This document shows positions 3,940 through 64,000 of a stretch of DNA of 64,000 nucleotides, in pieces. Every line of letters begins with the position of its first letter. The stretch's first letter is position 1. Made by a program: the position numbers and the translations under genes. Under the pieces are notes generated by a model. It did no database searches, was not told the origin of the DNA, and saw only the letters and a program-made list of their open reading frames with translations. The stretch covers positions 99,860-163,859 of IMG/VR virus record IMGVR_UViG_3300042090_002370; one strand, 5' to 3'. The DNA is from a virus.

Positions 3940-5385
3940 ATGTACGGATGGTTGAAACGAGCGGATGCACAACCGCCGTCGGCCACCGGCATGACTGCGG
4001 CCTCGCCCATCCCAACCCCCAGCATCTCCCACACTTACGCACCAGGTCTGCGAGGACCACAAGGTATAGGCCCGCGCACCAATTACTCCAGGGTGAATAC
4101 AGGCACTCCACCACAGGCAGACGCTGGGTCGGAGGCGCAGAAATCCATGCCCCCGAGGGGCGCTGAGATGTTGCCGAAGCGGGCTTCCGCGAACGGAGAG
4201 ACCACGATGGGAAACATGGCTGGACGACCGATGCTGCAAGACCTGGTGAAGGCTGCGATGGTGGACGCCACGCGCCGTACCAGCGTCAATGCGGAGGCGC
4301 ACCTCCAGACCGTGAAGACGGCTGGTGAGAAGAAGTGCGAGAAGTGCGGCAAGGAGAAGTGCTCTTGCATGGGCAAGATGGGCTCCGGCTTCCAGTCCGA
4401 GCTCGGTGAAAAACTTGCCGGCGCTCTCGACCATATGGCCTCCTTGCTCATGAAGAACGCCGATGCTCACATGGGCGGGCCGTACAATCTCACCGAGCAT
4501 CTTGTGGGTAGCCCACCGGGTGTCTCGCAGGCAACTGCCTCACAATCCCTCCCCGACCACAAGGGACAGGCGACCCCGGCGCACATCACACCGATGAGCC
4601 CGCCCACCCAGAAGGACCTGCCCGCCGAACACGGTGCGACGCAGATGAAGGACAATATGCAAGAGGGGCTCGAGCATACAAAGATGCCCCCGAACATCGT
4701 GTCCGGTGGAAAGCACGCCTCGGTAGCTGAGATCATCGCAGCCAAACTCGCTGCCCAGAAGACCGGGTCGGACGCGGAGAAGAAGGAGACTGAGGGTCTT
4801 GAGGCGGCCAAGAAGGGCCTCGAGCACGCCGAGGCAGCGCACAAGAGCGAATCAGAGAACAAGGAAGGCGCCGCGACTGTCCCTACGTCACTTGTTGACT
4901 ATATGGCGTCGCGCGTGAAGCAGGCGGAGGACGCGATCAACCCGGCTAAGATTACGGCCGGCGCTGCGGTCCCCCCACAGACCACTCAGGCCGGTCAGCC
5001 AGGCGGACACCCCGTTGGCGGCGCTCCCAAGGGGCCATCTGGCCTAGTCGGCTCCAACGACGCAGCACGAAACTACACCAAGGCGCAGTCGCACGGGGTG
5101 CGACGTGAAGAGCTCGCCAAGTATCTCAAGGAGCCTGCGCTCTCGATGGAGCACGACAGCGTACTGCGCGATGCATTCAAGCATACGGCGCAGGCGGGGA
5201 CGAAGTTCGCCGAAGCAGCCACCCCGCCCCTCCCCGAGGGCGAGAAGACAGCCGAAGCGGCTCCTCCTGTCGCCCCCGCTACGCCGGTAACGCCCAATCC
5301 CGTGACGACGAGCGTGAAGACAGCTGCCGCCAAGGTTCTGCTGTCACGTCTCGCAGCTGACGCAGTTGCTGCAGGAGCCCAGTAG
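3940..5385 (+). CDS. Large putative scaffold or head protein
   Basis: This 481-residue protein starts at ATG 3940, after GGGAGG, and is largely low-complexity (Pro, Ala, Lys, Glu). It contains a CEKCGKEKCSC metal-binding-like cluster near residue 130 and several K-x-A motifs (DLVKAAM, IAAKLAAQ, RVKQAED, EKTAEAA, VKTAAAK). The order protease, low-complexity proteins, capsid matches head modules where the scaffold precedes the capsid gene. No enzyme motif was seen. Confidence 0.55.
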   Translation: MYGWLKRADAQPPSATGMTAASPIPTPSISHTYAPGLRGPQGIGPRTNYSRVNTGTPPQADAGSEAQKSMPPRGAEMLPKRASANGETTMGNMAGRPMLQDLVKAAMVDATRRTSVNAEAHLQTVKTAGEKKCEKCGKEKCSCMGKMGSGFQSELGEKLAGALDHMASLLMKNADAHMGGPYNLTEHLVGSPPGVSQATASQSLPDHKGQATPAHITPMSPPTQKDLPAEHGATQMKDNMQEGLEHTKMPPNIVSGGKHASVAEIIAAKLAAQKTGSDAEKKETEGLEAAKKGLEHAEAAHKSESENKEGAATVPTSLVDYMASRVKQAEDAINPAKITAGAAVPPQTTQAGQPGGHPVGGAPKGPSGLVGSNDAARNYTKAQSHGVRREELAKYLKEPALSMEHDSVLRDAFKHTAQAGTKFAEAATPPLPEGEKTAEAAPPVAPATPVTPNPVTTSVKTAAAKVLLSRLAADAVAAGAQ

Positions 5386-5394: not shown

Positions 5395-5760
5395 ATGGAC
5401 AAGCTCAGCAATGCTCAGGCCGCAGAGGTCCTCTCTGATGCGGCGGCCTACATCCGGGCGCAAGGCGCACAGATCAACGATCTTACGGAGAAGCTCGCTG
5501 CGAGGGAGCGCCGTGACCGCGTAGAGAAGCTTGCGGGTACGATGCACGCCAAAGGACTTGAGCTCGACATCTCTGCCGATGCTCTTGCTGACCGACTCGA
5601 GAAGACCGCAGCTGCCGGTAAGCTCGATGCGTACGAGCACGCCGTGGACCTCGTCGGTCCCGATATGGGAACGAAGCTCGCGCAGCTCACAAACGACGCG
5701 CCTGGGGATTCCTCCAGCGGGTCTGCTTTCGAATCGTACATCGTCGGGACGGCAGGATAG
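5395..5760 (+). CDS. Small head-module protein with predicted coiled coil
   Basis: This 121-residue protein has an SD sequence (AGGAGACGCAT) before ATG 5395. The helical N-terminal half includes INDLTEKLAARERRDRVEKL and later LADRLEKTAAAG, again with the EK-x-A motif of its neighbours. The C-terminus is Ser/Gly-rich. It sits between scaffold-like genes and capsid genes. The function is unknown; scaffold or head assembly is plausible. Confidence 0.5.
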   Translation: MDKLSNAQAAEVLSDAAAYIRAQGAQINDLTEKLAARERRDRVEKLAGTMHAKGLELDISADALADRLEKTAAAGKLDAYEHAVDLVGPDMGTKLAQLTNDAPGDSSSGSAFESYIVGTAG

Positions 5761-6370: not shown

Positions 6371-7495
6371 ATGAGTGTTCCGGCGCGAGTCCTGAACGAG
6401 CTTTTCACGCAGAAGCTCGGTTCGTCTGAGGGCAAAGAGAAGATGGCGGAGTACGGAGGTTCGTATATCCGCGACCGTCTGCGTGAGGTCTCTTACGCCC
6501 GCAAGGTCGTCCCACCGGAGCAGGTCACGCGCAGTGACTGCCAGCGCTCCGTCAACCACGACACCTTGGTCAAGATCGTGGATGTCGAGCCTCAGTCGAG
6601 GGCGCTCACGATGTCTTTCCGTGGTCAGCCCACGGCAAGATTCATTCGTGGGCCCAAGGCGGAGATCGGTTTCTACACGATCTCGAGCGAGGTCTTCCAG
6701 AAGACTGAGCAGGAGCTTCTGGCCTATGAGATGCCCATCACCAAGATCATCGAGGAGAACTCGGTGAAGGACATCCAGGAGGTCGAGGACCGTGAGTTCA
6801 CGGTCTTCACCGAGGCGGCCGTACAGGCCCTTCAGGTGGTCGCAAACGGCGGTGTCGCAACGCCGCTCAACGCGACGACCATCCAGGCTGGTGGCGTTGT
6901 GGAGTTCTCGGTGCGTAAGGGCGAACTTGCTCGGACGCAGACGAGCAACACATCCACCGTTTTCCCCATCCAGCGACCGGACCTCATCAACCTGTTCAAG
7001 CTCTTGGACGGGAACCGGTTGCGCTCGGAGCGCCTGCTGATGACGGAGGCCGACTGGGACGACATCCTCCAGTGGACGGTCGAGGACTTGGGCGACAGGC
7101 TCCAATCGGAGACCGCCGTCGACGGCTACAAGTACAACACCCTGTTCGGGCGTTCGTACATTCGTACTGTGAAGACGGACATCCTGCGTCCAGGAAACGT
7201 CTACGTCTTTACGAAGCCGGAGTTCTTCGGGAAGTTCTACGTCCTGAACAACACGAAGTTCTACATCGACAAGATCGCCAACGTCATCACCTTCCAGGCC
7301 TGGGAGGATATCGGCATGGCGGTCATCAACATCGCAGCCGTTCGCAAGCTCGAGCTCTACTCGGCAGACGCGGACCCCACGACGAACGCCGACGGTCTCA
7401 TCACGAGCTTCATCCCCGTGGTCGAGGACGCGCTCGGTGCGCCGAATAACCAGGTTGACAATGGCCTGGTTTTCCCTGGGATCACGCAGTACTAG
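6371..7495 (+). CDS. Major capsid protein
   Basis: This 374-residue protein has the usual size of an HK97-fold capsid protein. It lies at the end of the head module and has a strong SD (AAGGAGAAAGG). It begins with a helix (ARVLNELFTQKLGS). A central alpha/beta region includes TVFTEAAVQALQVVAN, and an LMTEADWDDILQW segment resembles the spine and P-domain layout of such proteins. A strong terminator follows its stop, as expected for a highly expressed gene. The identification rests on size, position and general pattern, not on a diagnostic catalytic motif. Confidence 0.72.
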   Translation: MSVPARVLNELFTQKLGSSEGKEKMAEYGGSYIRDRLREVSYARKVVPPEQVTRSDCQRSVNHDTLVKIVDVEPQSRALTMSFRGQPTARFIRGPKAEIGFYTISSEVFQKTEQELLAYEMPITKIIEENSVKDIQEVEDREFTVFTEAAVQALQVVANGGVATPLNATTIQAGGVVEFSVRKGELARTQTSNTSTVFPIQRPDLINLFKLLDGNRLRSERLLMTEADWDDILQWTVEDLGDRLQSETAVDGYKYNTLFGRSYIRTVKTDILRPGNVYVFTKPEFFGKFYVLNNTKFYIDKIANVITFQAWEDIGMAVINIAAVRKLELYSADADPTTNADGLITSFIPVVEDALGAPNNQVDNGLVFPGITQY

Positions 7496-9804: not shown

Positions 9805-11238
9805 ATGGATTTCGAAGAGCAACTCCTGAACGGTATCCCGCACGCTGAAGCTGCAGACTTCTTCTTGCGCATCCGCGGCAAGGACAAGACGGCCATGAGC
9901 GCTGTGGCCTTCGACTCGGCTGTAGCTCTCATGCCAGAGGCCGAACGCGCGGTGCTTATGAAGAGCGCCAGTGCTGTCCTACACAACATTCAGCTCCCCG
10001 GGGTCTTGAAGAAGGCCAATATGATGGGGGCCCCTCCCACTCCACTGCCGCCCGGCGGCCGCGGTCAGAACATGTCGCCGGCGATGCCAGCGCCACTTAC
10101 GCCGACAGCGATGGGGCAGCAGAGCATGGCTCCTCCTGGTGGTATGGCTGGCGGTGGTATGAAGATGGGGGCAGCAGAGAAGAGCCCAGATGAAGTGGGC
10201 AAGGAGCGCGGCCGCGCTTCTGTCGCCGCCGAGTTCGAGAAGGAGAAGTACCATACGCACGAGAGTAATCGTAACCTCATCGGCCATCTTGGTGGCGCGG
10301 CTTTGGGCGCAGCCATCGGCCACAAGATGAATGGCAACGCGACCTCGAAGGTGCTCTCCACGCTCGCGGGCTCTCATCTTGGCGGGCTCGCAGGTAAGCA
10401 CTCGGGCCAGGAAGCAGACCGCAAGGAGTTCGATAAGAGCGCCGCTGCTTTCAAGACCGCGCTCGACGCTACGATGGGGCTCAATGGCCCCAAGCAACCT
10501 CAGCAGATGGCGCAGCAGGAAGAGCCGATGACGCAAGAGCCCGGGGCCCCGCCTGTTCCAGCAGGGCAGGAGGAGGGTGTCGAGCCGCGCATCCCACTCC
10601 CGGTGCAGCAGTTCCTCGAAGCTCAGCGGATGGGCGATCAGGCTGCTGAGCAGAGCCACGCGGACTTCTTGCGTGGGAAGCTCGAGGAGGCACGTGCCGC
10701 GCAGCAGCAAGCCCAGGAGGAGGCCGCTGCTCTACAGGAGCAGCAGGCGCAGCACGAGCAGCAGCAGATGGAGATTCAACAGCAGGTGCAGGACTCCATC
10801 CAGCAGGCGTCTGCAGCGCAGGACCAGGTGCTCCAGGAGCAGCAGGCCGCTGCGGCGATGCGCATGGCCTACCAGCAGCTTCGTGGGCAGGTTCTGCAGA
10901 TCGCTTCTGCCGACCCACCGGCATTGAGCTCAGACGCCGCCGCCCTCTCGGCGGCTAGTACGGCGGCCGCTCCGCAGAGCGGGCCAGGCGCCTCAGGCCC
11001 ACCTGAGCGCGGCCCTGCCGGCCAAGCGCCCAGCCCTGGTACTCCCAATACGCCAGCGCCACTCGGCGACGAGACTGTCACCGACAAGGACGGTATCCAG
11101 CCCAATGAGCCCACGTTCAGCAATGCGTCGCCTACGACTTCGGTGGGTCAGAAGGAACCGCAGGGTGATGCGAAGACCCCACAGAAGGAGGTCTTGTCGC
11201 ACTACCGCCCTTTAGACTTGAGAAAGCTGCTTCTCTGA
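9805..11238 (+). CDS. Gln-rich virion protein, probable zero-frame product of a -1 frameshift pair
   Basis: This 477-residue protein has an N-terminal helical segment, a Gly/Met/Pro-rich linker and a glycine-zipper hydrophobic region (HLGGAALGAAIGHKMNG, about residues 150-170). A long Gln/Glu-rich coiled coil (about residues 290-350) precedes a Pro-rich tail. Near the end the zero-frame codons CGC-CCT-TTA contain a C-CCT-TTA slippery heptamer. A -1 slip would extend the protein to 605 residues through the next frame. It may be a structural or ejected protein; the function is unknown. Confidence 0.55.
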   Translation: MDFEEQLLNGIPHAEAADFFLRIRGKDKTAMSAVAFDSAVALMPEAERAVLMKSASAVLHNIQLPGVLKKANMMGAPPTPLPPGGRGQNMSPAMPAPLTPTAMGQQSMAPPGGMAGGGMKMGAAEKSPDEVGKERGRASVAAEFEKEKYHTHESNRNLIGHLGGAALGAAIGHKMNGNATSKVLSTLAGSHLGGLAGKHSGQEADRKEFDKSAAAFKTALDATMGLNGPKQPQQMAQQEEPMTQEPGAPPVPAGQEEGVEPRIPLPVQQFLEAQRMGDQAAEQSHADFLRGKLEEARAAQQQAQEEAAALQEQQAQHEQQQMEIQQQVQDSIQQASAAQDQVLQEQQAAAAMRMAYQQLRGQVLQIASADPPALSSDAAALSAASTAAAPQSGPGASGPPERGPAGQAPSPGTPNTPAPLGDETVTDKDGIQPNEPTFSNASPTTSVGQKEPQGDAKTPQKEVLSHYRPLDLRKLLL

Positions 11239-11270: not shown

Positions 11271-11621
11271 GTGCCGGTTCTTCCTCATGCAGCTATCGGA
11301 GCAGCGATGGGAGCTGGGATGGGGCTCGCTGAGGCAAAGACCAGTAACGAACCATTGCGTCAGAAGATCGAGGCGCTCGAGGCACAACCAGAACGCGGTC
11401 TCAGAGGCACTCTGGACTTAGCGCAGGCACGTGCCAGGCATACGGTAGGTGAGTGGGCAGCAGAGCATCCTGGGGCAATGGTTGGTGCAGGCGCACTAAG
11501 CGGAGCGATGTTCGGTGCAAGGAAGGGGCCTGGTATAGTGAACGAGGCAAACGCGTGGGCCGGGAAGGCCAAGAACCTCGGTAAGAACGTGAGTGAAATC
11601 TTTGGCAAGGGAGCGGCGTGA
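11271..11621 (+). CDS. Glycine-zipper protein, probable -1 frame extension of the preceding gene
   Basis: The frame opens upstream of the first start codon, GTG 11271, which has SD-like GAGGAAG. It encodes two Gly/Ala-rich hydrophobic segments, AAIGAAMGAGMGLAEA and GAMVGAGALSGAMFGARKG, separated by a charged helix. Coding-like sequence before the GTG includes FSEIARK, related to the FxxELxKIA motif of other virion genes. It may be made as an independent 116-residue protein, as the tail of a 605-residue frameshift product, or both. Confidence 0.55.
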   Translation: MPVLPHAAIGAAMGAGMGLAEAKTSNEPLRQKIEALEAQPERGLRGTLDLAQARARHTVGEWAAEHPGAMVGAGALSGAMFGARKGPGIVNEANAWAGKAKNLGKNVSEIFGKGAA

Positions 11622-12703
11622 TGCTCGACGAGTTTCTGGATACGGTTTACACGCACCAGGTTCGGAAGCAGGCCGAGTACGAAATGGTCGGCTTGCTCAA
11701 GGACATTCCGACCCTTGAGCTCAAGAAGCTCGCGGCCGGGACACCCGTTGCCGAGCTCTACGAGAAGCAGGCCTTCGGTGACTGCGCCCCAAGCACTGAC
11801 GACGCGCCGAAGACTTTCCTCGACAAGTTCAAGGACACGCCTCTCTTCGATGAGGCGCTAGCCCTTGAGCAGGAGAATCTGGAGGCCGAGGCCGCCAACA
11901 TTCAGGCACGGATGCAGCGTCGAGGGGAGGACCAGTTGTACCAGGTGCAGGACCAGATCCGTCTGAAGAAGCGTCTCCTCGAGCTGAAGCTGGCCAAGCT
12001 ACAGGCGGGTGGTCAGGACCCGGCGGCTGCAGCTGGCGCGCCACCTCCCCCAGGCGAGCCAGCGCAAGGCGCCGGCGCTCCCGGCCCAGTACCAGCAGAG
12101 GGAGTACAAGATAGCTCGCAGGGGTTGGGCGGCGGCGTGGCGAAGTCGGCGAGCGTGAAGAAGACCGCTTCCGAGCTCGTTCAGTTCTCCGATGCCTTTG
12201 CTCGAGCGCTCGCTCGCGCAGACTTTGAGAAGGCAGCGCGTGTAGAGGTACTGCTCAAGACCGGGTCGGTTGCTGGTGAATTGATGGCCAAGAGCGCTGG
12301 TCTAGGTACTATGATCGGACAGTCACTGAACGGCGGTACGCTTGGACGCGCAGCTGGTTGGGCGTTGAAGCACCCTAGCGCAGCGGGTAGTATCGTAGGT
12401 GGAACAGTTGGAGCCGCCGGCGGTGCCCTTGCAGGCGGCCCGGAGCATCGACTCTCTGGAGCCATAGGTGGAGCAGCACTGGGCGCTGGTGTTGGTCATG
12501 CAGCAGGCGGAATCGGGTCTGGGATGCTGGCAGGGCAGGGTCTCGGACAGGCGGCCAAGAGCTACGGTGGGGGCGTTTTGCAGAAGGCCAAGGGCATGAT
12601 GCCAGGCGCAGGTGCGGCGCCATCTGGGCCGGCACCCATTCGCAAGCGCAGGCCAGGCCAAGGCAACGCGCTGAGCATGCCCACCGTTCCAGACATGCGG
12701 TAG
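11621..12703 (+). CDS. Virion protein with glycine-zipper membrane-like domain
   Basis: The protein has 360 residues from ATG 11621, which overlaps the previous TGA by one base; a GTG at 11618 is in frame but less likely. The N-terminus carries MLDEFLDTVYTHQVRKQAEY and LELKKLAAG, related to the short motif of the 54-63 kb genes. A helical region and a Pro/Ala linker follow. The C-terminal half has long Gly/Ala segments (SIVGGTVGAAGGALAGG, GAIGGAALGAGVGHAAGG) that could insert into membranes. It may be a structural or DNA-ejection protein. Confidence 0.55.
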   Translation: MLDEFLDTVYTHQVRKQAEYEMVGLLKDIPTLELKKLAAGTPVAELYEKQAFGDCAPSTDDAPKTFLDKFKDTPLFDEALALEQENLEAEAANIQARMQRRGEDQLYQVQDQIRLKKRLLELKLAKLQAGGQDPAAAAGAPPPPGEPAQGAGAPGPVPAEGVQDSSQGLGGGVAKSASVKKTASELVQFSDAFARALARADFEKAARVEVLLKTGSVAGELMAKSAGLGTMIGQSLNGGTLGRAAGWALKHPSAAGSIVGGTVGAAGGALAGGPEHRLSGAIGGAALGAGVGHAAGGIGSGMLAGQGLGQAAKSYGGGVLQKAKGMMPGAGAAPSGPAPIRKRRPGQGNALSMPTVPDMR

Positions 12704-54092: not shown

Positions 54093-54725
54093 GTGGACCT
54101 CAAACCAGTCACGCTTGCTGCGTTCGCTGATGAGCTCGGCAAGATAGCCGCGGCGCATGGCCTCAATGTCATCAGCAAGAGTCGTAAGGGCAGCCGGCCG
54201 ATTAGCGTCTCCAAGCTGCTTCAGAAGGATCGAGAGGGGACTCTACGGAAAAGGAAGCACGCCGATGCACAGGGCAACGCTCAGGACGTTCGCGGCGATG
54301 CGTGTGACGACCCGGGTGCTGCGCAGATCCCGCACCGCAAGGGCGAGGTTCCAACAAAGGGCTCGGACGACATTTCGGTAGGGCAGAAGACGGGGATGGT
54401 TCCAGGCGCTAATACGCAGACCTCTGCTGTCACTTCCGGTGAGGACACACGCATGACGCCGAGTGTGCGACCTTCTCCTGGTGATGTACCAACCCAGGCG
54501 AACATGGCCGTCGACCAGCCGAACAACCGTATAGGGCCTCCTACTCGTGGCATCACCTTCGATCAGGCGGCCAAGAAGGTTCGAAGTGGCGATGTTCCGA
54601 CGCGCACCGAGGACATGAACAAGGTGGACCGCGGGGATATGCGGGACAATACAACAACGGTGTCTGGCCTGGGACAGAGCTCAACTGGCATCGGCGCTTT
54701 TAACAGCCCGAGCGAACACACGTAA
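54093..54725 (+). CDS. Putative virion protein with FxDELxKIA motif
   Basis: The protein has 210 residues from GTG 54093. The N-terminus reads LAAFADELGKIAAAHG, the clearest form of the short motif shared by the 54-63 kb genes. After residue 40 the sequence is disordered (Asp, Thr, Pro, Gly) with repeated VPT motifs (GEVPTKG, GDVPTQA, GDVPTRT). It may be an internal head or ejected protein. No domain is recognised. Confidence 0.5.
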   Translation: MDLKPVTLAAFADELGKIAAAHGLNVISKSRKGSRPISVSKLLQKDREGTLRKRKHADAQGNAQDVRGDACDDPGAAQIPHRKGEVPTKGSDDISVGQKTGMVPGANTQTSAVTSGEDTRMTPSVRPSPGDVPTQANMAVDQPNNRIGPPTRGITFDQAAKKVRSGDVPTRTEDMNKVDRGDMRDNTTTVSGLGQSSTGIGAFNSPSEHT

Positions 54726-54742
54726 ATTACTGCGCGCCTCCG

Positions 54743-54751
54743 GGTATAAGA
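54743..54751 (+). promoter_or_regulatory. GGNATAAGR promoter-like motif
   Basis: GGTATAAGA lies 15 bp before ATG 54767 and is followed by ACCTCGGAGG, very similar to the leaders at 25275 (ACCCTGGAGG) and 63476 (ACCTTGAGG). Confidence 0.55.
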
Positions 54752-54766
54752 ACCTCGGAGGTTATC

Positions 54767-55174
54767 ATGTCTACAATTGATCTCAATTCATTGACGTTGG
54801 GGCAGCTGAAGGAAATCAAGGCACTGCTTGGCGTGCGGTCTTGTAAGGTCAAGGCTAAGCCAGCAAGCGGGTTCTGGACGGAGTCTTTCGAGGAGGAGGG
54901 CCCGGTCATCGTACGGAGTTACGGTGCCGGCGTTTTCTTCGGGTACCTATCCAAGAAGCGCGACAACGAAGTTCTACTTCTTCGGTGCAGGCGAATCTGG
55001 GTGTGGAAAGGCGCGAACACTTTGAGCGAGCTGGCGCGTCATGGCCTATTGCCGGAGGGGTCGAGAGTCTCAGAGCGCACTGCTAAGCATCGTGTGTTGG
55101 ACGTAATTGAGATTATCGACGTCACGCATGAAGCCATGAGGGTTTTGGAGTCCGCCGTGTGGAGCACAAAATGA
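54767..55174 (+). CDS. Small conserved phage protein, paralog of the 63516 gene
   Basis: The 135-residue protein begins STIDLNSLTLGQLKEIKALL. Like the gene at 63516 it has a 'D-L-T-x-x-Q-x-x-EI' start, an RS-K-K segment, and then VIVRSYGAGVFFGYL followed by strands and a W. Both are preceded by the same motif and followed by a hexanucleotide-repeat gene. The 63516 protein keeps the better-conserved family pattern (IVRTVT, TGRF, VGRGAI); this one is diverged. The function is unknown. Confidence 0.55.
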   Translation: MSTIDLNSLTLGQLKEIKALLGVRSCKVKAKPASGFWTESFEEEGPVIVRSYGAGVFFGYLSKKRDNEVLLLRCRRIWVWKGANTLSELARHGLLPEGSRVSERTAKHRVLDVIEIIDVTHEAMRVLESAVWSTK

Positions 55175-55428
55175 AACGCGGTCGCCGTGTTTTCGGATAC
55201 GGATACGGATACGGAGACGGAGGCGGATACGGAAGCGGAGACGGAAGCGGATACGGATACGGAAGCGGAAGCGGAAGCGGATACGGAGACGGAGGCGGAA
55301 GCGGAGGCGGAAGCGGAGGCGGAGACGGAGGCGGAGACGGAGGCGGAGGCGGATACGGATACGGAAGCGGAAGCGGAAGCGGATACGGAGACGGAAGCGG
55401 AGGCGGAAGCGGAGGCGGAAGCGCGTAA
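55171..55428 (+). CDS. Gly-Tyr/Ser/Asp repeat protein
   Basis: The protein has 85 residues from ATG 55171, overlapping the previous stop (ATGA, SD TGGAG). After a basic start (MKRGRRVF) the rest is 38 dipeptides Gly-X, with X = Tyr, Ser, Asp or Gly, encoded by hexamers GGA-TAC, GGA-AGC, GGA-GAC and GGA-GGC. It ends at a strong terminator. It may be a flexible or adhesive tail, or DNA-coating peptide; no function is established. Confidence 0.55.
   Translation: MKRGRRVFGYGYGYGDGGGYGSGDGSGYGYGSGSGSGYGDGGGSGGGSGGGDGGGDGGGGGYGYGSGSGSGYGDGSGGGSGGGSA
55195..55422 (+). repeat. 38 tandem hexanucleotides GGA(T/A/G)(A/G)C
   Basis: All 38 units keep GGA at the first and C at the sixth position; only positions 4 and 5 vary, among TA, AG, GA and GG. 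The array is uninterrupted and in frame. A long Pro-rich frame on the opposite strand is its mirror. Confidence 0.95.
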
Positions 55429-55430
55429 CT

Positions 55431-55460
55431 AAAAAAGGAGGGCCGCGGCCCTCCTTTTTT
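55431..55460. terminator. Bidirectional terminator
   Basis: AAAAAAGGAGGGCC and GGCCCTCCTTTTTT (55431-55444 and 55447-55460) form a perfect 14-bp stem around GC, with a T-run to 55461 and then AGCCGCGCAGCAT, a degenerate form of the TAGCTACGCAT motif. Confidence 0.88.
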
Positions 55461-55521
55461 TAGCCGCGCAGCATCTGTAGCGCGCTTCCGAGGGCAAGCA
55501 CCCAGATGGTACGCTGCGTAT

Positions 55522-55956
55522 ATGGGCTTCATCGCTGCCACGCTCAACGGGCTTGTTTATGAGCTGGCCAAGATCGCGGCCTTCGCCAACGCAATGCAGC
55601 CGCCAGCGAGTCCGCAGGCGACGCAGATGGGCCCTATGCCTGGGCCGCAGCGCGTTCCGAGTATCAACGAGGCCGCCGTCGGCAGCGCGAACTACAAGAT
55701 GTACCTGCCGACGGTGGTGGCGGACATGCAGGCCCGTGCAGCAACTCCTACTATTCGCCCCGGCATGGCCGTAACGCCCAAAACCATTCCGGCGGCCGCG
55801 GGGGCACTTCCCCGTGCTGTAAGCGGTACGGTGCCTAAGCCCACCAGTATCCTGGGTGCAGCCGCTCGCGCTACTGTACGAGAGCCCTCTTCGTTCCCAG
55901 TTTCTATCGCTAAGACCATCTCGGCCCCGGCTGCCCGCATGGCAGCGCATCTGTAG
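55522..55956 (+). CDS. Putative virion protein with FxxELxKIA motif
   Basis: This 144-residue protein begins GFIAATLNGLVYELAKIAAF, matching the short motif. The rest is Ala/Pro-rich and probably disordered. GGTACGCT 6 bp before the start region may be a -10 box, as at 19499. It is the first gene of a co-directional run to 60832. Confidence 0.5.
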   Translation: MGFIAATLNGLVYELAKIAAFANAMQPPASPQATQMGPMPGPQRVPSINEAAVGSANYKMYLPTVVADMQARAATPTIRPGMAVTPKTIPAAAGALPRAVSGTVPKPTSILGAAARATVREPSSFPVSIAKTISAPAARMAAHL

Positions 55957-55964
55957 GAGCACAC

Positions 55965-56651
55965 ATGAATCTGGAAGTCGCGCAGGCTGCATTCAAGGAC
56001 GAGCTAGAGAAGATTTCCTTCGCCATTACGGAGAAGGGGCACAAGTTCGACGCGGAGAAGCACCGCATCTTGGCGGAGCAGAGCGCGGCTTTGGATGCAC
56101 TGTACCAGCAGTACGGCGGACTAAGCGCGCCCGGCGACCCTGCAACGTTTGGCGGCGTTCTCCGATTCGGCCCCGATCAGGAGGAGGGGGCACACCGTCA
56201 TCATGAGTACGTGCAGAAAATGCACGAGATGGGCGCCAATGCATGGAACCCATTAGGTGGCATTCTGACACCCAGTTCATATGAAGAAGGCGGAACAAGC
56301 GGGCTGTTTTCTCAGCTTGGTAGGGTCTCCCCTAAACCAGTGCAGAAGATCGCTGCTGTCCTCACCGCACAAACGCTCTCCTCCTTCTCCACAGAGATGC
56401 AGAAGATCGGTGGCTGCACGAAGCTTGCTGAAGAGCTCACATCAGAAGCCAGGTCGAAGCTCCCAGGCAAGGACTTCGCGGTCAAGGCCAAGAAGTCGAA
56501 CACGGGCCAAGAGGCTTACCCCATACCGGACCGCCAACATGCTCGATCAGCGCTGGGCTTCGCCAAGATGCACGGTGACTCCGCTGATCTCTCAGCAGTG
56601 CGGGCGAAGATCAAGTCGAAGTTCCCGGACATGCTCGCCGGCGAGAAGTAG
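55965..56651 (+). CDS. Putative virion protein with motif and C-terminal packaged-protein domain
   Basis: This 228-residue protein has SD TAGGAGCACAC. It begins EVAQAAFKDELEKISFAITE (motif) and has a second copy in SSFSTEMQKIGG. The last 65 residues (SKLPGKDFAVKAKK ... YPIPDRQHARSALGFAKMHG) follow a pattern LPxxxFA...YPIxDxxHARxAL that recurs at the C-terminus of phage and prophage proteins. That match is from memory. The role is probably in virions; the mechanism is unknown. Confidence 0.52.
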   Translation: MNLEVAQAAFKDELEKISFAITEKGHKFDAEKHRILAEQSAALDALYQQYGGLSAPGDPATFGGVLRFGPDQEEGAHRHHEYVQKMHEMGANAWNPLGGILTPSSYEEGGTSGLFSQLGRVSPKPVQKIAAVLTAQTLSSFSTEMQKIGGCTKLAEELTSEARSKLPGKDFAVKAKKSNTGQEAYPIPDRQHARSALGFAKMHGDSADLSAVRAKIKSKFPDMLAGEK

Positions 56652-56656
56652 CAGTC

Positions 56657-57304
56657 ATGGGTCTTCTTCAACGTTTTGGACAAGGGGCGCTAGAGCATAA
56701 GACCGAACTTGCCGGTCTCGGCATTCTTGCGGCGCCTAGTGTCGATGAGGCGCAGGCGCACATCCGTGCTGGACTTGCTGGTGACTACAACCATGAAGGC
56801 GTGAAGAAGAGAACGCTGCTACCGAGCGCAGTGAAACCGGCTACTGAGATCGGTGGTCTCGGTGTTCTAGCGTTACCTTCAGCTGCACATCTGCTCTCCA
56901 AACACGCTGTGGCTGGCCTATTCGACGAGCTTGTAAAGCTCTCGGCGATTACCGACGACGAGGCTCGCCGCTCTCTTGATCGTTATGACCAGCTGCAGAA
57001 GTCTGCGCCTACTGCTGGTCAGGCGCTACGTTATGGCGCTCTGGGTGTTGGCGCAGGGTCATTGGGCAGCGCAGTAAAGAGCACCATCGAACATGGACGG
57101 CTGCCATCGGCACGTGGAGCACTGGGCAGTGCAGCGTCGAACGCTATTGTAGCTGGAGCACTGCCGTTCATTCGCAGCACACTAGACCGTTCTGCGGAGA
57201 AGAGGACGCTCAAAGGCTACCTAGCTCAGGAGCACGTTGGTAACTACGCGCCAAATCAAGGCGCCTCGACGGACGTCGGCACGCCAACGGGATTGAGTCG
57301 GTAG
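56657..57304 (+). CDS. Putative virion protein with motif and glycine-rich segments
   Basis: The 215-residue protein contains HAVAGLFDELVKLSAITDDE near residue 90 (motif) and hydrophobic Gly/Ala segments (YGALGVGAGSLGSAV, NAIVAGALPFIRST). It begins 5 bp after the preceding stop. It may be a membrane-interacting ejected protein; the function is unknown. Confidence 0.5.
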   Translation: MGLLQRFGQGALEHKTELAGLGILAAPSVDEAQAHIRAGLAGDYNHEGVKKRTLLPSAVKPATEIGGLGVLALPSAAHLLSKHAVAGLFDELVKLSAITDDEARRSLDRYDQLQKSAPTAGQALRYGALGVGAGSLGSAVKSTIEHGRLPSARGALGSAASNAIVAGALPFIRSTLDRSAEKRTLKGYLAQEHVGNYAPNQGASTDVGTPTGLSR

Positions 57305-57311
57305 AACGACA

Positions 57312-57413
57312 ATGCCTAAGTGGGTACATGACAGGTCGGCTAGGATTCGCGCCGCCAACCCTGACATGCCAGAAGGAGAAGGCGAAGATGAGATACAAAA
57401 CACCTGGAGATGA
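57312..57413 (+). pseudogene. Short open frame resembling a broken MPKWVHDR-type N-terminus
   Basis: A 33-codon frame reads MPKWVHDRSARIRAANPDMP and then GE-rich sequence to TGA 57411. Its start resembles a common phage motif (MPxWVHDRAxxIxAxNPxMP) usually followed by KYKTP-like sequence. The next gene, in another frame, begins RYKTPGDDQKTAE. The two frames may once have been one protein, now split by a frameshift near 57370, or may be overlapping genes. Confidence 0.35.
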
Positions 57414-58113
57414 CCAGAAGACTGCAGAGGCCGAGCTCGAGTTCTTCTTTCTCAAGATTGCCGAGACCAACGTAGGACAGTGGTGGGAGAACGTTGGTGG
57501 TCCGCATCTAGCGAAAGGAGGGAGCCACGACGACTTCAAGAAGATGATGGACAAGGAGAAGCTACCTGAGCACATCAAAAAGAAGTTCATGGATGTCGCA
57601 AAGAAGAAGTATCCGCCTGGCCACAACATGGGGGAAGGAGCGAAGTGGGATGCTGCTCGGCAGAGGGGTGGTGTGGGAACGCGGCCATCTTGGGCGCACG
57701 CAGGACCACCTCGTTCCGGATTCATGGGGCATCTCGAGCGGCATCCGCATCTAGCTGGTGTTGGCGTCGCTGCCGGTCTAGTCGGTGCCGGCTACTTGGC
57801 AGATAAGTACAACATGCACAAAGCGGAAAAGAAAAAGAGCGAAGCGGCTAAGCAAACGCAGAAGGCGGCTGCATCAGTTGATGACGTAACATTACTGTCT
57901 TTTCTTGATGAGCTCGAGAACATCAAGGCAGCAGGACTGCTCGACTCAGTCAAAAAGGTTCTCACTACGCCCATCCCAGGAACGCCGGAGATTATGCCTG
58001 GTGTGACACATGCCGCTGAGAAGTTGAAGGGCCTCTCAGGCAACGTCAGCAAGCAGGGGCCTAGTAAGGCCTACGAGAAGTTCGTGGCACAGCGCGCTGC
58101 TGCAGGGCGCTGA
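57388..58113 (+). CDS. Putative virion protein with motif and TPIPGTPE segment
   Basis: The protein has 241 residues, with ATG 57388 chosen for SD AGAAGGAGAAGG. It has ELEFFFLKIAETNVGQW near the start and LLSFLDELENIKAAGLL near residue 185 (two motif copies). A glycine-zipper helix (GVGVAAGLVGAGYLADKYN) precedes a coil, and VKKVLTTPIPGTPEIMPG lies near residue 205. The last segment recurs in the 62157 gene. It may be ejected or internal; the function is unknown. Confidence 0.52.
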   Translation: MRYKTPGDDQKTAEAELEFFFLKIAETNVGQWWENVGGPHLAKGGSHDDFKKMMDKEKLPEHIKKKFMDVAKKKYPPGHNMGEGAKWDAARQRGGVGTRPSWAHAGPPRSGFMGHLERHPHLAGVGVAAGLVGAGYLADKYNMHKAEKKKSEAAKQTQKAAASVDDVTLLSFLDELENIKAAGLLDSVKKVLTTPIPGTPEIMPGVTHAAEKLKGLSGNVSKQGPSKAYEKFVAQRAAAGR

Positions 58114-60275
58114 TGCGCACGTGGTGTACAACGGCCTTTGTCGATGAGCTCGAAAAGATCGCGCTCGTGTCGACGCCTCTACTGCCTCACCAGCAGCGTG
58201 TGGTGGACCGTCTGCAGCAGAAGGACCAGCCTGGCCTGGTCGCCATTCACGGTCTGGGTTCTGGCAAGACACTCACCTCCATTGCAGCGCAGGAGGCTCT
58301 TGGTATGCCCTCTCAGGTGGTGGCGCCAGCGTCACTCCTCGGCAACTACCGGAAGGAGCGAGCGAAGCATCTCGAGGGCGAGTCGCAGAAGGCCTCGCTC
58401 ACTTCAATGCAGAACATGGCGACCAAGGGCAAGTCGCCGGATGCCCCAATGCTCATCGTCGACGAAGCGCATCGAGCACGAGACCCATCGACAGCTACCT
58501 TTCAGACCCTCAAGGGCAACACGTCACAGAAGCGTTTACTCCTTAGTGGCAGCCCATTCTACAACCACCCGTCAGACATCGCGCCACTCATCGATCTCGC
58601 CGCCGACGCGAAGGTCCTGCCCTACGATAAGGACGAGTTCACCCGCCGGTACATCACAGAGAAGGTGGTGAAGCCTGAGATGTGGCAGCGCGTGGCGAAC
58701 ATCTTCAGAAGTCCAGAGAACAAAGTGCAGCCCGGCGTGGTGCCGATGCTCTATCAGAAGAAGGCCCCAGAACTGCGTGATGCCTTCGCCAAGTGGGTGG
58801 ACTACCACCCTGGTAGTACGGAGAACTTCCCTGAAGTCACGCACGAGAACGTAGAAGTTCCGATGTCTAAGGAGCAGCTCAAGGTCTACGACACCTTGAT
58901 GGACAAGGCTCCGGCATGGGTCGCCGCCAAAGTGAAACGCGGCCTACCTCCCAACAAGCGCGAGGCGCAGCAGCTCAACTCCTTCCTCACAGCTTCTCGA
59001 CAGGCCGCCAACAGCACCTCCCCGTTCATCGAGGAAGGGCGCACTCCGGAGGAGCCGAAGATCCAGGCGGCGTTCGAACGCATGCAGAAGACGCTGGGTG
59101 AGAACCCGCGGTCCAAGGGTGTCGTCTACTCGAACTACCTCAGCGCGGGCATCGATCCCTACAAGCGGCGTCTCCAGGAGGCAGGCATCCCCTTCGGCGA
59201 ATTCACCGGAGAGCTCCCCGCCAAGAAGCGCGACCAGCTGGTCAAGGATTATAACGAGAACAGAATTCGCGCGCTGCTGCTCTCCTCCGCCGGCGGTGAG
59301 GGCCTAGACCTCAAGGGTACGCGACTCATGCAGGTGCTCGACCCGCACTGGAACCAGGAGAAGCTGAAGCAGGTAGAGGGTCGCGGTGCGCGGTACATGA
59401 GCCACGCCGATCTGCCGCCCGAGGAACGCAACGTGCGCGTGGAGAACTATCTGTCGACGCGGCCTCAGGGTCTCCTCAGCAGGGGCATGAATGCACTCAC
59501 CGGTAGGAAGCCGGATCAGTCCGTCGACCAGTACCTTTCGCAGATGTCTAAGGGCAAAGAGGACCTCATCAACCAGTTCCGCGAGCTCCTGCCGCAGGAG
59601 CAGCCGCCTGCCAAGACCGCCGCGACCAGGCTTCCGACGACAGAGGAGTCCCGTGCGCTCGCGAGTTCATGGAAGCCTCGACTGGCTGCGGAGGCTGCCT
59701 TCACGTTGCCGATGGCGACGAACACTGCGGCCCTGGGCTCGCTCATCGGTCCGAAGTGGGCGCTCATCGGCGCTGGTCTAGGCGGCCTATTGGGGCATAC
59801 CGTCTCGAACATTGAGCTGTCTAACATGGTCTCACACGGTAAGCGAATGGCGCGGGAAGCGGCGAGGAAGCCTACCAAGGAGAACGCGTTGCGGGAGTCG
59901 GCGGACGGGCTGGATTGGGGCGAGGTCGCACGGTCGTCGGTGGGGCACGCGTTACCTATCGCGCTACCGGCGATGTTCCATGGAGGACAAACCCACTACG
60001 CGCTCACGGACAACCTGATGGGCGCCTCTATCGCGACCGGCGCGCTCGGAGCCATCGGTTCTGGCTACCTCGACAAGTACCGACGGCAGATTGCTATCAA
60101 CGAGCTCGAGAATGCACGTCAGGAAGTGGGGACAGCGGATGCCGCTAGGCTTCAACGCCTTCGTAGGCAGGTTGCCAACTTAGAGGACCAGGTCGAAGGG
60201 GGTTGGAACAAGACCGCACCTGAAGACAGGACGACGCAAACTAAGCAGAAGGACAAGAGCGGAAAGGACTGGTAG
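58113..60275 (+). CDS. SF2 (SNF2-like) helicase with N-terminal motif and hydrophobic C-terminal region
   Basis: The protein has 720 residues and overlaps the previous stop. The N-terminus is TTAFVDELEKIALVSTPLLP (short motif). The helicase core follows: Walker A HGLGSGKT (46-53), DEAH box LIVDEAH (114-120), motif III SGSPFY (145-150), motif V SSAGGEGLDLKG (about 400) and motif VI QVEGRGARYMSH (about 430). After residue 520 come Gly/Ala-rich hydrophobic segments (GPKWALIGAGLGGLLGHTVS, GASIATGALGAIGSGYL). All ATPase motifs look intact. The set suggests a helicase carried in the virion, or acting at the membrane during DNA entry. Confidence 0.8.
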   Translation: MRTWCTTAFVDELEKIALVSTPLLPHQQRVVDRLQQKDQPGLVAIHGLGSGKTLTSIAAQEALGMPSQVVAPASLLGNYRKERAKHLEGESQKASLTSMQNMATKGKSPDAPMLIVDEAHRARDPSTATFQTLKGNTSQKRLLLSGSPFYNHPSDIAPLIDLAADAKVLPYDKDEFTRRYITEKVVKPEMWQRVANIFRSPENKVQPGVVPMLYQKKAPELRDAFAKWVDYHPGSTENFPEVTHENVEVPMSKEQLKVYDTLMDKAPAWVAAKVKRGLPPNKREAQQLNSFLTASRQAANSTSPFIEEGRTPEEPKIQAAFERMQKTLGENPRSKGVVYSNYLSAGIDPYKRRLQEAGIPFGEFTGELPAKKRDQLVKDYNENRIRALLLSSAGGEGLDLKGTRLMQVLDPHWNQEKLKQVEGRGARYMSHADLPPEERNVRVENYLSTRPQGLLSRGMNALTGRKPDQSVDQYLSQMSKGKEDLINQFRELLPQEQPPAKTAATRLPTTEESRALASSWKPRLAAEAAFTLPMATNTAALGSLIGPKWALIGAGLGGLLGHTVSNIELSNMVSHGKRMAREAARKPTKENALRESADGLDWGEVARSSVGHALPIALPAMFHGGQTHYALTDNLMGASIATGALGAIGSGYLDKYRRQIAINELENARQEVGTADAARLQRLRRQVANLEDQVEGGWNKTAPEDRTTQTKQKDKSGKDW

Positions 60276-60281
60276 AACATT

Positions 60282-60542
60282 ATGAGATTGCTACTCGCGC
60301 TCAGCGCGGTGTTGTTCTTGGGCTGCGGTGCAGGGCTCAGCATCACGGATGTAGAGGCGGAGCAGGCGACGCAGACGTTGTCAGGTGGTGGTTACAAGGA
60401 GCACTTCGATGACGACAGCGGCCTCGACAAGATTCGCTACCAAGCGATTTACTGCGGCAGTACCGGTATTCTTCTGCGGTCTGGCCATCCGACTAGCAGT
60501 ACGTCTGACGCCGGCCCGCAATGCCCGACGGTGGCTCCATGA
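60282..60542 (+). CDS. Small lipoprotein
   Basis: The protein has 86 residues with signal peptide MRLLLALSAVLFLGC (lipobox LFLGC, Cys15). The mature part includes two further Cys and a Thr/Ser-rich end. The SD is weak. It follows the helicase closely and overlaps the next gene by ATGA. It may be a lysis (outer spanin-like) or exclusion lipoprotein; not shown. Confidence 0.6.
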   Translation: MRLLLALSAVLFLGCGAGLSITDVEAEQATQTLSGGGYKEHFDDDSGLDKIRYQAIYCGSTGILLRSGHPTSSTSDAGPQCPTVAP

Positions 60543-60832
60543 CCTTCGATGAGCTGAAGGCGCAGCTAGCCACTGACTGCCCGTTTTGGGGGGAGTCGGA
60601 ATGGAACGCTTTTCTCACAGCTGATCCAGCTACGCAGCAGGCCTTGGCTACAGCCATGCACCTGTCTACAGAGGGCCTTGGTGTAAACGGGTGGCAAACC
60701 GCGCTGACCATCCTGCAGGAGGCCGCCCCTGCCTTCAGCCTCATCCCTGCAGTAGGCCCGTTCATCACCAGTGGCATCGAAGCCATCGACATGCTTGTAA
60801 ACTACCTCCGCCTGAAGGCGGAGGCTTTGTAG
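60539..60832 (+). CDS. Hypothetical small protein ending in an IS-like hairpin
   Basis: The protein has 97 residues from ATG 60539 within the lipoprotein stop. It starts TFDELKAQLATDCPFWGESE and has a hydrophobic helix near residue 70 (FSLIPAVGPFITSGIEAIDM). Its last codons (LRLKAEAL) are formed by a CCTCCGCC-TGAA-GGCGGAGG hairpin that matches the TnpB element end, so the native C-terminus may have been replaced by an older insertion. Confidence 0.5.
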   Translation: MTFDELKAQLATDCPFWGESEWNAFLTADPATQQALATAMHLSTEGLGVNGWQTALTILQEAAPAFSLIPAVGPFITSGIEAIDMLVNYLRLKAEAL

Positions 60833-60893
60833 CTCACGCCACAAACTTTTGTGAAACTGTTCACACCGTAAACAACCCCGCCCTAAAGGGCGG
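60797..60893 (-). repeat. Duplicated right-end (omega RNA 3' end) sequence
   Basis: Two direct copies of about 35 bp read on the plus strand as GTAAACxACCxCCGCC ... GGCGGAGxCTTTGT: copy A 60797-60830 and copy B 60868-60900. Both contain a stem with a four-base loop, and on the minus strand both end at GTTTAC. Sequence beyond GTTTAC differs completely between the copies, as expected for guide regions. Confidence 0.7.
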
Positions 60894-62091
60894 AGCTTTG
60901 TGATTGAGCTTTTGAGACTCGAACCACTTTCCTGCTTCGACGAGGTGCCCTAAGGCGGCAAGAACTCTCCACAGGCTGAACCGATGGTTTCCAACGGCTT
61001 TTCAAAATCTTCGAGGCATTAATGTCGGCATGTTCCCGGTAACCGCAATGGACGCAGCAAAATACCTCTCCCTTGCGGGAAGCGGCGTCGATGCACCCAC
61101 AAGCCGAGCATGTTTGAGACGAGTAGGCGGGGTGGACTTCCGCCAACTGACCGCCCTCCCGCGTGAGCTTGTACTTGAGGAACTTGGCGAGCATTCCCCA
61201 ACCTTGGTCGAGGATACCTCGCGCAAGCCCCCGATTAGCCTTCACCATGTTGCCGATCTGGAGATTCTCGATCACGACGGTGCCGTGGCTCTTGGCGTAG
61301 TCGTGACTGAGCTGGTGACAGAAATGCTCCCGTTGCCTACGGACCTTCCGGTGAAGGTTGGCGCAGCGGAGCTTCGCTTTCTCTCGGTTTTGGGATCCTT
61401 TCTTCCTCCTAGAGACAGTACGTTGAGCACGCGCAAGCCTCTTGAGAGCCTTGCTGTAGAAGCGGGGGGATGGGACAAGCTTGCCGTCCGAGTCCGCGAT
61501 CACGTTCGTAACGCCTCGGTCGATAGCGACGATGGGCCCGACCTTTGGAGTCGGGTCGGCAACTTCAACCTCGCAGACAATCGAGGCGAACCACTGATCG
61601 CCGTCTCGCTTGAGGGTGCAAGTCTTGGGTCTGCCTTCGATGGGTCTGTGGATAACGGCTCTGAGGTTGCCGAGTTTGGGGAACCTCAAGAGGTTGCCGT
61701 CCAACCGCCAAGCTTTGGGATGTGGCTCGGTCAAGCCAAGGAAGTCTCGTCCTCGCTTCTTCCACCTAGGAGCCCGAGCCACCCGCTTGAAACAGCGTTG
61801 CCAAGCCTTGTCCAACTCGACGAGGAGCTGGGCACACACGTTTCGAGGAACATCGGCGAGCCAAGGAAGCTCTCTGCGAAGTTCGGTCAGTTCGTTGATC
61901 TGATCGAATGCGGACTGGAAGATTCTCTCGTCCCTAGGACGTGCAAGTCCCATCTGCCGCTGTTCAAGAGCAAGGTTCCAGAGGCACCGGAGAGCACTCT
62001 CCCACTGCCCGAACCGATCGACTTGAGCTTCGGTCGGGTAGACGCGATAGCGGAACGCCTTGCTCGTGACCACGGTACTACCATAGTACAT
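60883..62091 (-). CDS. tnpB: TnpB RNA-guided nuclease
   Basis: The 402-residue protein has a usual TnpB length. RuvC residues are Asp191 (GPIVAIDRGVTN), Glu275 (TVVIENLQIGNM) and Asp356 (YREHADINASKI). Zinc ligands CSAC (328-331) and CVHC (346-349) lie between the last two. The N-terminus (AFRYRVYPTEAQVDRFGQWE) matches the family start. All catalytic residues are intact, so it may be an active nuclease guided by an omega RNA encoded at its own 3' end (right end at 60868-60893). It has no tnpA partner here. Confidence 0.92.
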   Translation of the reverse strand: MYYGSTVVTSKAFRYRVYPTEAQVDRFGQWESALRCLWNLALEQRQMGLARPRDERIFQSAFDQINELTELRRELPWLADVPRNVCAQLLVELDKAWQRCFKRVARAPRWKKRGRDFLGLTEPHPKAWRLDGNLLRFPKLGNLRAVIHRPIEGRPKTCTLKRDGDQWFASIVCEVEVADPTPKVGPIVAIDRGVTNVIADSDGKLVPSPRFYSKALKRLARAQRTVSRRKKGSQNREKAKLRCANLHRKVRRQREHFCHQLSHDYAKSHGTVVIENLQIGNMVKANRGLARGILDQGWGMLAKFLKYKLTREGGQLAEVHPAYSSQTCSACGCIDAASRKGEVFCCVHCGYREHADINASKILKSRWKPSVQPVESSCRLRAPRRSRKVVRVSKAQSQSSAL

Positions 62092-62156
62092 CCCACAACC
62101 ATCTGGAGAGCGGTTCCTCCTCGGCCTGAAGGCCGAGGTTTCCCCGCTGAGATCCG

Positions 62157-63446
62157 ATGAACAAGGAATCCATCTTCCCGGAGCTGGCCCGACTAGGCTC
62201 GCATATCATGGGGCGTGCTCCTGAAGCCACTGCGGCCACAGAGGGGGCCGTGCGTGGTGCGATGGGGCAGCTACAGAACGGTGCGAAGAGGGTATTGAAC
62301 ACACCCATTCCGGGCACGCCTGAAGTCATACCTGCGGGCATCCGCTGGCACCTTCGCAAAGGGGTCGACAAGGTTATCGAGAACCCGGCGTTGGCGCTCG
62401 GTACAGTGACCCCTGTACCGTTTGGTGGGCCTCTTCTCATGGGGGCGCAGCGGGCTGTCGAGAGCGGTATCAACCGACTCGTACCGCCCAAGCTGGCCTT
62501 CGCCGTCTCGCAGTACTCGGGGGCGCTCAACCCCGTCATCGAGAGCGGCGCGAGCTATTTGCCGCAGCGAAAAGTTCCACGGCTTGATGTCGCGGTGGAC
62601 AAGGGCAATCTGCTCAAGGAGAAGGACAGCGACGCGCTCCCAGAAGGCATCGCGATGCAGCCTTGGGACAGTTTCAAGCGCTCGAAGTACGCCTTCATGG
62701 ATGAGTCGAATCCGTATCTGCGTAAGGCGGTGATAGGAGCTCTCGGTGGGGCGTTGGTCGGCGGTCTTGGTGGTGTTGGTCATGAGGCCATCTGGAAGAC
62801 GCCGATGAAGCCTATGTCGATTCACACGGAGGCGCAGGACAATGCCGGTGTTGATACAAGGTATGAGGGTGCTGACGTGGGCTCGTTGAAGCCTATACCT
62901 GAGGGCAGCTCGCCGATAGGCAGCAAACACTACACGTCACCGCGGGAGCTGGCGGTTGGTCGACTGGCCTCAACGCAAAACGCCGGTAAGAAAGTAAAGC
63001 CCCCGCCTGGTGTTAGGGAGATTGTCGAATCGGGTAGGCATCGGACAGTCACTGTAGACCGCCCAGAACTCGATGTCGCTGGGCGCATTTCGCCGCTCAG
63101 CTTCCACCATGACAGGCGCGCCATGTCGAGGGAACAAGCCATCGAATTCGCGCAGCGCGAAGCGCGCACACCAGGCAAGTACGCCATGCCGACGGAGAAG
63201 ATGGCCGAGTTCGTGGAGGGCCTGTTGAAGGAGGCCATCCCCGGCCTCACTCCTCAGAGCCGGTTGGAGCAGAGCGCAAGGATAGGGGCGCCCAAAGCTA
63301 CACCGCCACCAGGCCCATCGATTGCGGATATTGCGAAGCCCAAGGGAAGCGCGTTCGGTACGGCTATCGCCGGTGCGAACAAGGGTACGATTGGCGGTAC
63401 CAGTGTTGGTGGTATCGGCAATATGAAAAGCCTGCCGTCGTTGTAG
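62157..63446 (+). CDS. Putative virion protein with TPIPGTPE segment
   Basis: The 429-residue protein begins MNKESIFPELARLGSHIMG (loosely like the short motif) and contains NGAKRVLNTPIPGTPEVIPA near residue 40, shared with the 57388 gene. A Gly-rich hydrophobic segment (VIGALGGALVGGLGGVGHE) lies near residue 190, and EKMAEFVEGLLKEAIPG near residue 345. No SD lies before ATG 62157: the IS left end abuts it, so the insertion may have cut off the native promoter and SD. Confidence 0.5.
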   Translation: MNKESIFPELARLGSHIMGRAPEATAATEGAVRGAMGQLQNGAKRVLNTPIPGTPEVIPAGIRWHLRKGVDKVIENPALALGTVTPVPFGGPLLMGAQRAVESGINRLVPPKLAFAVSQYSGALNPVIESGASYLPQRKVPRLDVAVDKGNLLKEKDSDALPEGIAMQPWDSFKRSKYAFMDESNPYLRKAVIGALGGALVGGLGGVGHEAIWKTPMKPMSIHTEAQDNAGVDTRYEGADVGSLKPIPEGSSPIGSKHYTSPRELAVGRLASTQNAGKKVKPPPGVREIVESGRHRTVTVDRPELDVAGRISPLSFHHDRRAMSREQAIEFAQREARTPGKYAMPTEKMAEFVEGLLKEAIPGLTPQSRLEQSARIGAPKATPPPGPSIADIAKPKGSAFGTAIAGANKGTIGGTSVGGIGNMKSLPSL

Positions 63447-63875: not shown

Positions 63876-64000
63876 ACGCCGCGATGTTGGGCGCGGCCGC
63901 ATGGGGCGGTGGGTCGTGGTCGGGGTCGTGGTCGCGGTCGGGGTCGCGGTCGTGGTCGCGGTCGGGGTCGCGGTCGTGGTCGCGGTCGGGGTCGCGGTCG
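63872..64000 (+). CDS. Ser/Trp/Arg/Gly dipeptide-repeat protein (partial, runs off the window)
   Basis: The frame opens at GTG 63872 inside the previous stop and continues past the window end. After MNAAMLGAAAWGG the protein is a run of (Gly/Trp/Arg)-Ser dipeptides encoded by NGG-TCG hexamers. It stands in the same place relative to its small conserved neighbour as the Gly-X repeat gene at 55171. Confidence 0.45.
   Translation, partial: MNAAMLGAAAWGGGSWSGSWSRSGSRSWSRSGSRSWSRSGSRS
63911..64000 (+). repeat. At least 15 tandem hexanucleotides (G/T/C)GGTCG
   Basis: Units of NGGTCG with N = G, T or C follow one another without a break to the window edge. From the fourth unit on the order is TCGC, a 24-bp super-period. 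The array continues beyond the window. Confidence 0.92.

Follow-up and report, generated by a model that had tools for sequence, protein, structure and literature searches.

A ~17-residue N-terminal leader shared by unrelated proteins of large uncultured phages, a putative head-loading signal with a probable K-x-A maturation-cleavage site at its end

The window analyzed here is a 64,000-base stretch (bases 99860-163859) of a 163,859-base IMG/VR virus record, IMGVR_UViG_3300042090_002370. The source genome is that of a large tailed phage. It encodes a major capsid protein (MCP), a DNA polymerase A, whose gene belongs to a cluster on the minus strand, and a fused RNA polymerase. Between positions 54093 and 60275 of the window, a run of open reading frames (ORFs) contains variants of a short peptide, FxDELxKIA (x, any residue), which in four of them belongs to an N-terminal leader, here called the tag. 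Because genes were called with a custom script, small ORFs and the start positions of ORFs are approximate. The sites are as follows.

54093..54149, plus strand: leader VDLKPVTLAAFADELGKIA, with a GTG start, of a 210-residue ORF (54093-54725); FADELGKIA at 54123-54149, residue 11
55522..55578, plus strand: leader MGFIAATLNGLVYELAKIA of a 144-residue ORF (55522-55956); LVYELAKIA at 55552-55578, residue 11
55965..56018, plus strand: leader MNLEVAQAAFKDELEKIS of a 228-residue ORF (55965-56651); FKDELEKIS at 55992-56018, residue 10
56385..56411, plus strand: second, internal motif-like FSTEMQKIG, followed by TKLAEEL, in ORF 55965-56651
56918..56944, plus strand: internal motif LFDELVKLS, residue 88 of ORF 56657-57304
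57901..57927, plus strand: internal degenerate motif FLDELENIK (ELENIKA), residue 172 of ORF 57388-58113
58113..60275, plus strand: SNF2-type helicase whose leader MRTWCTTAFVDELEKIA (58113-58163) is fused straight to the helicase domain; FVDELEKIA at 58137-58163, residue 9

All six strings quoted in the initial annotation are present in the window, but the positions it listed as motif sites are ORF starts, and the motifs lie further in. Its description of all six as N-terminal holds for four (residues 9 to 11) and fails for the two at residues 88 and 172, the latter of which is degenerate. The MGFIAATLNGLVYELAKIA leader is a relaxed form, with L in place of F and Y in place of D. Orthologues of ORF 54093-54725 keep the leader and are 41 to 55% identical downstream of it; tagged orthologues of ORF 55965-56651 occur in related loci L121/L123 and L132; and the "AGLGILA.PSV" proteins of L192 and L201, which are related to ORF 56657-57304, carry the tag immediately before that stretch. 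The helicase matches PF00176 (52 bits; cutoff, 24.9) and PF00271 (51.5 bits; cutoff, 23.5). It has tagged orthologues in four related genomes (G001, G003, G004, and G006), and orthologue starts include ...AFADELAKIA followed by EVTTTLLPHQQRVV and ...AFVDELEKIA followed by DIKTPLLPHQQRVV, in which the tag is joined directly to the domain.

Counts in the 163.9-kb source genome exceed those in shuffled sequences both for ELxK[ILTMV][AS] (10 vs 1.1) and for [DE]K[ILTM]A (18 vs 4.9). We gathered relatives via the MCP, taking 80 of 234 related loci; the IMG/VR contigs among them reach 195 kb and are possibly fragments, and the cultured relatives found by MCP are Salmonella phage Arash and Vibrio phages D69, D148, and D181. 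The window helicase also matches Pseudanabaena phage PA-SR01. Because orthologues are non-independent samples, we put weight on reversed controls, alignments, and contig association rather than on raw counts. A DNA pattern for F-x-[D/E]-E-L-x-K-[I/V]-[A/S] yielded 32 matches in 28 related records, on a single strand within each record, versus 0 for the reversed pattern. The translated matches read M-x(3-10)-[A/S]-F-x-D-E-L-x-K-[I/V]-[A/S], nearly all right after the start codon, within ~12 residues of it. Grouped by BLAST after motif removal, which left a few pairs with weak local similarity, the carriers fall into ~14 families across the 28 records, and they are otherwise unrelated, as the initial annotation had supposed.

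A forward scan of IMG/VR for the motif returned at least 119 stretches, 89 of which, among those listed, were read; a control scan with a reversed peptide of similar degeneracy returned 76 stretches and was complete. Among the forward matches listed, 62/89 have an ATG within 14 codons upstream (control, 11/76), and the upstream open frame has a median of 35 codons (control, 383). In 85% of these forward hits, A, S, or G precedes the F, a position that the search left unconstrained, and the leader through KIA spans 11 to 22 residues, with exactly 17 the commonest length. Synonymous codon choice differs among the three exact motif copies in the window, which argues for selection on the peptide and rules out recent duplication of 5′-end DNA. 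K-x-A lies ahead of internal tags in 10/22 cases, versus 1/18 in the same proteins 30 to 44 residues upstream; a second control, in which K-x-A lies ahead of reversed-motif hits, gave 38/73, possibly reflecting many homologues of one family. Since these two controls disagree, we draw no conclusion from either. Four common tag forms had no match in the literature searched. The tag is a ~17-residue N-terminal leader common to unrelated proteins of a sizable group of large uncultured phages.

Pfam searches on tagged proteins identified SNF2 helicase, MazG with ATPase, GNAT with glyoxalase, and permuted papain-like C92 amidase domains; most carriers had no match. The tagged MazG-ATPase, GNAT-glyoxalase, and C92 papain-like amidase proteins of L188, L197, L206, L224, and L152 are candidate injected enzymes. 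The helicase in the replication cluster of the source genome has no tag, an internal contrast to the tagged SNF2 helicase.

The initial annotation also pointed to looser motif forms in the protease and scaffold-like proteins. These forms are real: K-x-A is the most enriched head-module pattern and is conserved between orthologues. The head-module genes of the window that carry such sites are listed here.

177..3002, plus strand: head maturation protease with an intein; K-x-A at residue 30 (FEKTAAP) and at residues 890 and 909; family assigned via orthologues (phrog_18299)
3004..3903, plus strand: putative scaffold-like head protein, 299 residues, 11 K-x-A sites
4231..5385, plus strand: putative scaffold-like head protein, 384 residues, 10 K-x-A sites
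5395..5760, plus strand: putative scaffold-like head protein, 121 residues, 4 K-x-A sites
6371..7495, plus strand: MCP (phrog_2522), K-x-A at residues 24-26 (6440-6448) in the N-terminal arm
9805..11238, plus strand: head-module protein, 477 residues, K-x-A sites
11621..12703, plus strand: head-module protein, 360 residues, K-x-A sites

In an unbiased count of three-residue patterns, KTA, EK.A, and L.K.A rank first or close to it among the head-module proteins of the source genome, a ranking that its other genes do not share; in related loci, the leading patterns are K.AS and EK.A. The T4 and phiKZ patterns, [I/L].E and [S/A].E, were not among the top head-module patterns of the source genome. 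As a positive control, the same style of count recovers the known [I/L]-x-E site for head proteins of T4 (46 vs 22, compared with 16 vs 12 for tail and portal); phiKZ served as a weak one (81 vs 65). In orthologue alignments, K and A are ~80 to 100% conserved at many sites, with neighbors often at 20 to 50%. Conserved sites occur in scaffold-like proteins of 371, 299, 384, and 121 residues, near both termini of the protease, and in the N-terminal arm of the MCP, where the surrounding residues are conserved as well and K-x-A is present in 54/57 orthologues. Terminase, sheath, and other control proteins showed no K-x-A excess in these alignments. The consensus from 32 conserved sites is [LFM]-[E/V]-K-[L/T/V]-A-[S/A/E]; because FxDEL falls outside it, the tag has two parts. 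Herpesvirus assemblin, which we considered for comparison, has an A-S specificity that resembles K-x-A followed by S.

Across the source genome, the head module is rich in site-like motifs (47 vs 8.9 expected), and they are not equally common in the replication cluster (8 vs 6.3) or the tail region (2 vs 2.3), a distribution in keeping with the virion role that the initial annotation proposed. Two stretches, portal/RNA polymerase/terminase (22 vs 8.9) and sheath (5 vs 1.7), fall in between, and DELYKIA, lacking the F, occurs once in the replication cluster. The contrast in K-x-A between head and tail holds for Arash and D69 as well, and the excess was not clear in Rhodococcus phage E3 or Virus Rctr197k. 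An AlphaFold2 model of the MCP (predicted local distance difference test [pLDDT], 34) was too poor for use.

Head-module proteins of PA-SR01 (L090, 12000-29000) repeat a different motif, ANF (11 vs 1.1 expected), possibly a cleavage site of that phage's own. ANF also stands just ahead of the PA-SR01 helicase domain (EHFANF), and the protease of this phage belongs to a different family, phrog_976. A different motif alongside a different protease is the pattern expected if the motif tracks the protease, in this one case.

The head maturation protease family phrog_18299 is matched by the Arash (2.1e-6) and D69 (6.6e-7) orthologues of the window protease, as well as by Pleione of the Bxz1 group (9.4e-19) and by E3 (8.2e-16), whose gp77 is annotated as a prohead protease. 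Within the head module, the protease gene precedes that of the MCP, as it does in Pleione and E3. Compared with the phrog_18299 family of Bxz1-group mycobacteriophages and E3 gp77, to which it is linked by these orthologues, the window protease ORF differs in being split by an intein; the head proteins differ as well, those of the Bxz1 type showing a modest RTA excess (10 vs 2.2) and those of E3 none. The 358-residue intein (705-1778; Hint and LAGLIDADG matches) interrupts the protease between VSMG and C, beside an invariant Ser. H117, H118, and S174 (in VSMG) are invariant in the alignment and are candidate catalytic residues. The protease AlphaFold2 model (pLDDT, 47.5) was too poor for use, and a fold search of the PDB gave no match at an E value of ≤0.001, nor did a protease-profile sequence search of the PDB give any match. 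Contigs of ≥80 kb picked by motif alone, among the matches listed, have a protease-family match in 30/35 cases, versus 0/6 for control contigs; at least two of the five tag contigs without one (G037 and G055) look like chance hits, with no ATG near the motif. Because the control contigs are few and mostly from unrelated phages, we take this contrast as evidence of association, not of function.

Several protease genes of related loci have features of their own. Those of L010, L020, and L039 apparently have an intein at the same position, between VSMG and C, and those of L051, L052, L083, and L086 apparently have one a few residues later, between DTC and FPAGT. In Pleione (L102), the family match covers the first ~210 residues of gene 100 (12086-16195), which is annotated as hypothetical.

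In T4, the opening residues of a 10-residue leader do the targeting, and the last ones are cut (PMC9026906). Like the tag, this capsid-targeting sequence (CTS), which gp21 cuts, is a very short N-terminal leader borne by unrelated proteins, in T4 the internal head proteins IPI-III and Alt (PMC9026906); in both, a proposed targeting part precedes a cleavage part, a presumed one in the tag, and the cleavage motif is also found in the MCP, scaffold, and protease. The T4 CTS differs in its [I/L]-x-E site and its length of ~10 residues, whereas the clade of the window has K-x-A, ~17 residues, and at least ~14 families of carriers, including a helicase and other enzymes. Lacking the T4 cleavage consensus, the tag would work like the T4 CTS without being a member of it. 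In SPN3US, N-terminal propeptides on head proteins are removed (PMC10052503). The phiKZ/SPN3US systems (S/A-x-E and A-x-E) resemble the one proposed for the window: head and ejection proteins carry N-terminal propeptides, each with several sites, and the protease processes itself (PMC10052503, PMC5694885). They differ in cleavage motif and in propeptide length, mostly 111 to 254 residues with some of 20 to 24, and their accounts (PMC10052503, PMC5694885) describe no docking consensus common to unrelated proteins, unlike the tag. These comparisons suggest that the tag is this clade's K-x-A counterpart of the T4-type two-part leader, with targeting presumed for its first part and cleavage for its second.

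Since the K-x-A end of the tag recurs in capsid, scaffold, and protease, the tag most likely serves in head loading and is then removed. We consider it probable that it is a leader (consensus, M-x(3-10)-[A/S]-F-x-D-E-L-x-K-[I/L]-[A/S]) carried by cargo proteins of ~100- to 210-kb phages, in which FxDEL serves for docking and K-x-A for maturation cleavage. The analysis shows that the motif exists, that it sits at the N-terminus of many otherwise unrelated proteins, that it is associated with the protease, and that its K-x-A core recurs in head proteins; these results support a signal of the type that the initial annotation named (capsid targeting, scaffold binding, or cleavage), apart from the two internal examples. 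From these features we infer the targeting, cleavage, and ejection of tagged proteins. AFxDEL, as a helical docking element, would draw its carrier into the core that the scaffold forms inside the prohead. Upon closure of the prohead, the head maturation protease would be activated, and the LxKxA end of the tag would be a recognition site of the phage's own protease (177-3002), which would recognize [LFM]-[E/V]-K-x-A-[S/A/E] in the MCP arm, in the scaffold, and in itself. Cutting presumably just past K-x-A, it would trim the N-terminal arm of the MCP, cut up the scaffold, process itself, and remove the cargo leaders. As DNA enters, the cargo (the helicase and other enzymes) would stay in the head, presumably to be ejected with the DNA. 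On balance, and with somewhat less assurance, we also favor the view that AFxDELxKIA is a portable 17-residue address, used clade-wide to load swappable enzymes (SNF2 helicase, MazG-ATPase, GNAT-glyoxalase, C92 amidase, and many proteins without a predicted function) for ejection into the host.

Several observations weigh against this interpretation. One cuts both ways: Gp217, the Arash homologue of the helicase, is abundant in virions (38 unique peptides and 1148 spectra) (PMC10585845), which favors the interpretation, yet this packaged protein has no tag; at the level of the DNA pattern, FxDELxKIA was not found in Arash, D69, or PA-SR01. Thus, the tag is unnecessary for packaging in relatives. 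Mass spectrometry of Arash also gave high coverage of scaffold-like proteins, with no pointer to their loss (PMC10585845); the coverage column looks unreliable, with 100% listed for two unique peptides. Finally, the window protease itself has no direct match to phrog_18299, its link to the family running through Arash and D69, and two of the six examples in the window are internal.

It is unlikely that the tag is a docking helix only, in which FxDELxKIA would bind scaffold or a portal-associated protein and never be cut, with the K-x-A repeats of the scaffold reflecting helix packing. FxDEL is indeed specific to leaders and outside the general K-x-A consensus, but the presence of K-x-A in the MCP arm, near both protease termini, and up to 10 to 11 times in scaffold-like proteins is a maturation-cleavage pattern, and the known head leaders of T4 and SPN3US are cut. 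Quite improbable is the converse, a removable N-terminal propeptide that is a cleavage site only, with packaging dependent on other parts of the protein: the untagged, packaged Arash helicase and the status of K-x-A by itself as a general site would fit, but the fixed AFxDEL and its ~17-residue distance from the start would be left unexplained. We give very little credence to a role outside the virion, such as sorting within the cell, protein stability, or an interaction with the phage RNA polymerase. The lack of Pfam matches for most carriers leaves room for it, but the tag associates with a head protease family, shares K-x-A with the MCP and scaffold-like proteins, and is absent from the replication cluster, including its helicase. 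Chance resemblance or amino acid composition is ruled out for practical purposes by shuffles, reversed ORFs, and reversed-pattern and reversed-peptide scans, even though the motif is built of common helix residues and chance accounts for a few IMG/VR hits that have no start close by.

Other features of the source genome stand apart from the tag. Within the cluster of tagged genes, a TnpB-like gene (OrfB_IS605 and Cas12f1-like TNB domains) lies on the minus strand at 60883-62091. Tandem arrays of 6-, 12-, and 24-base units occupy 55194-55423 and 63912-64000; the record ends within the latter, perhaps at an assembly break. Outside the window, a 2159-residue ORF (G000:C1:83436-89915; L008) has both Rpb2 and Rpb1 domains, an apparent RNA polymerase fusion; in Arash, the genes for the beta-type and beta′-type RNA polymerase subunits are separate.

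The packaged or injected proteins of large phages are normally known only through proteomics of cultured phages. If our interpretation of the tag is true, the injected cargo of these abundant, large, uncultured phages could be read straight from sequence, including metagenomes. K-x-A would then also represent a new protease specificity, and the tag might offer a new peptide with which to load foreign proteins into phage heads.

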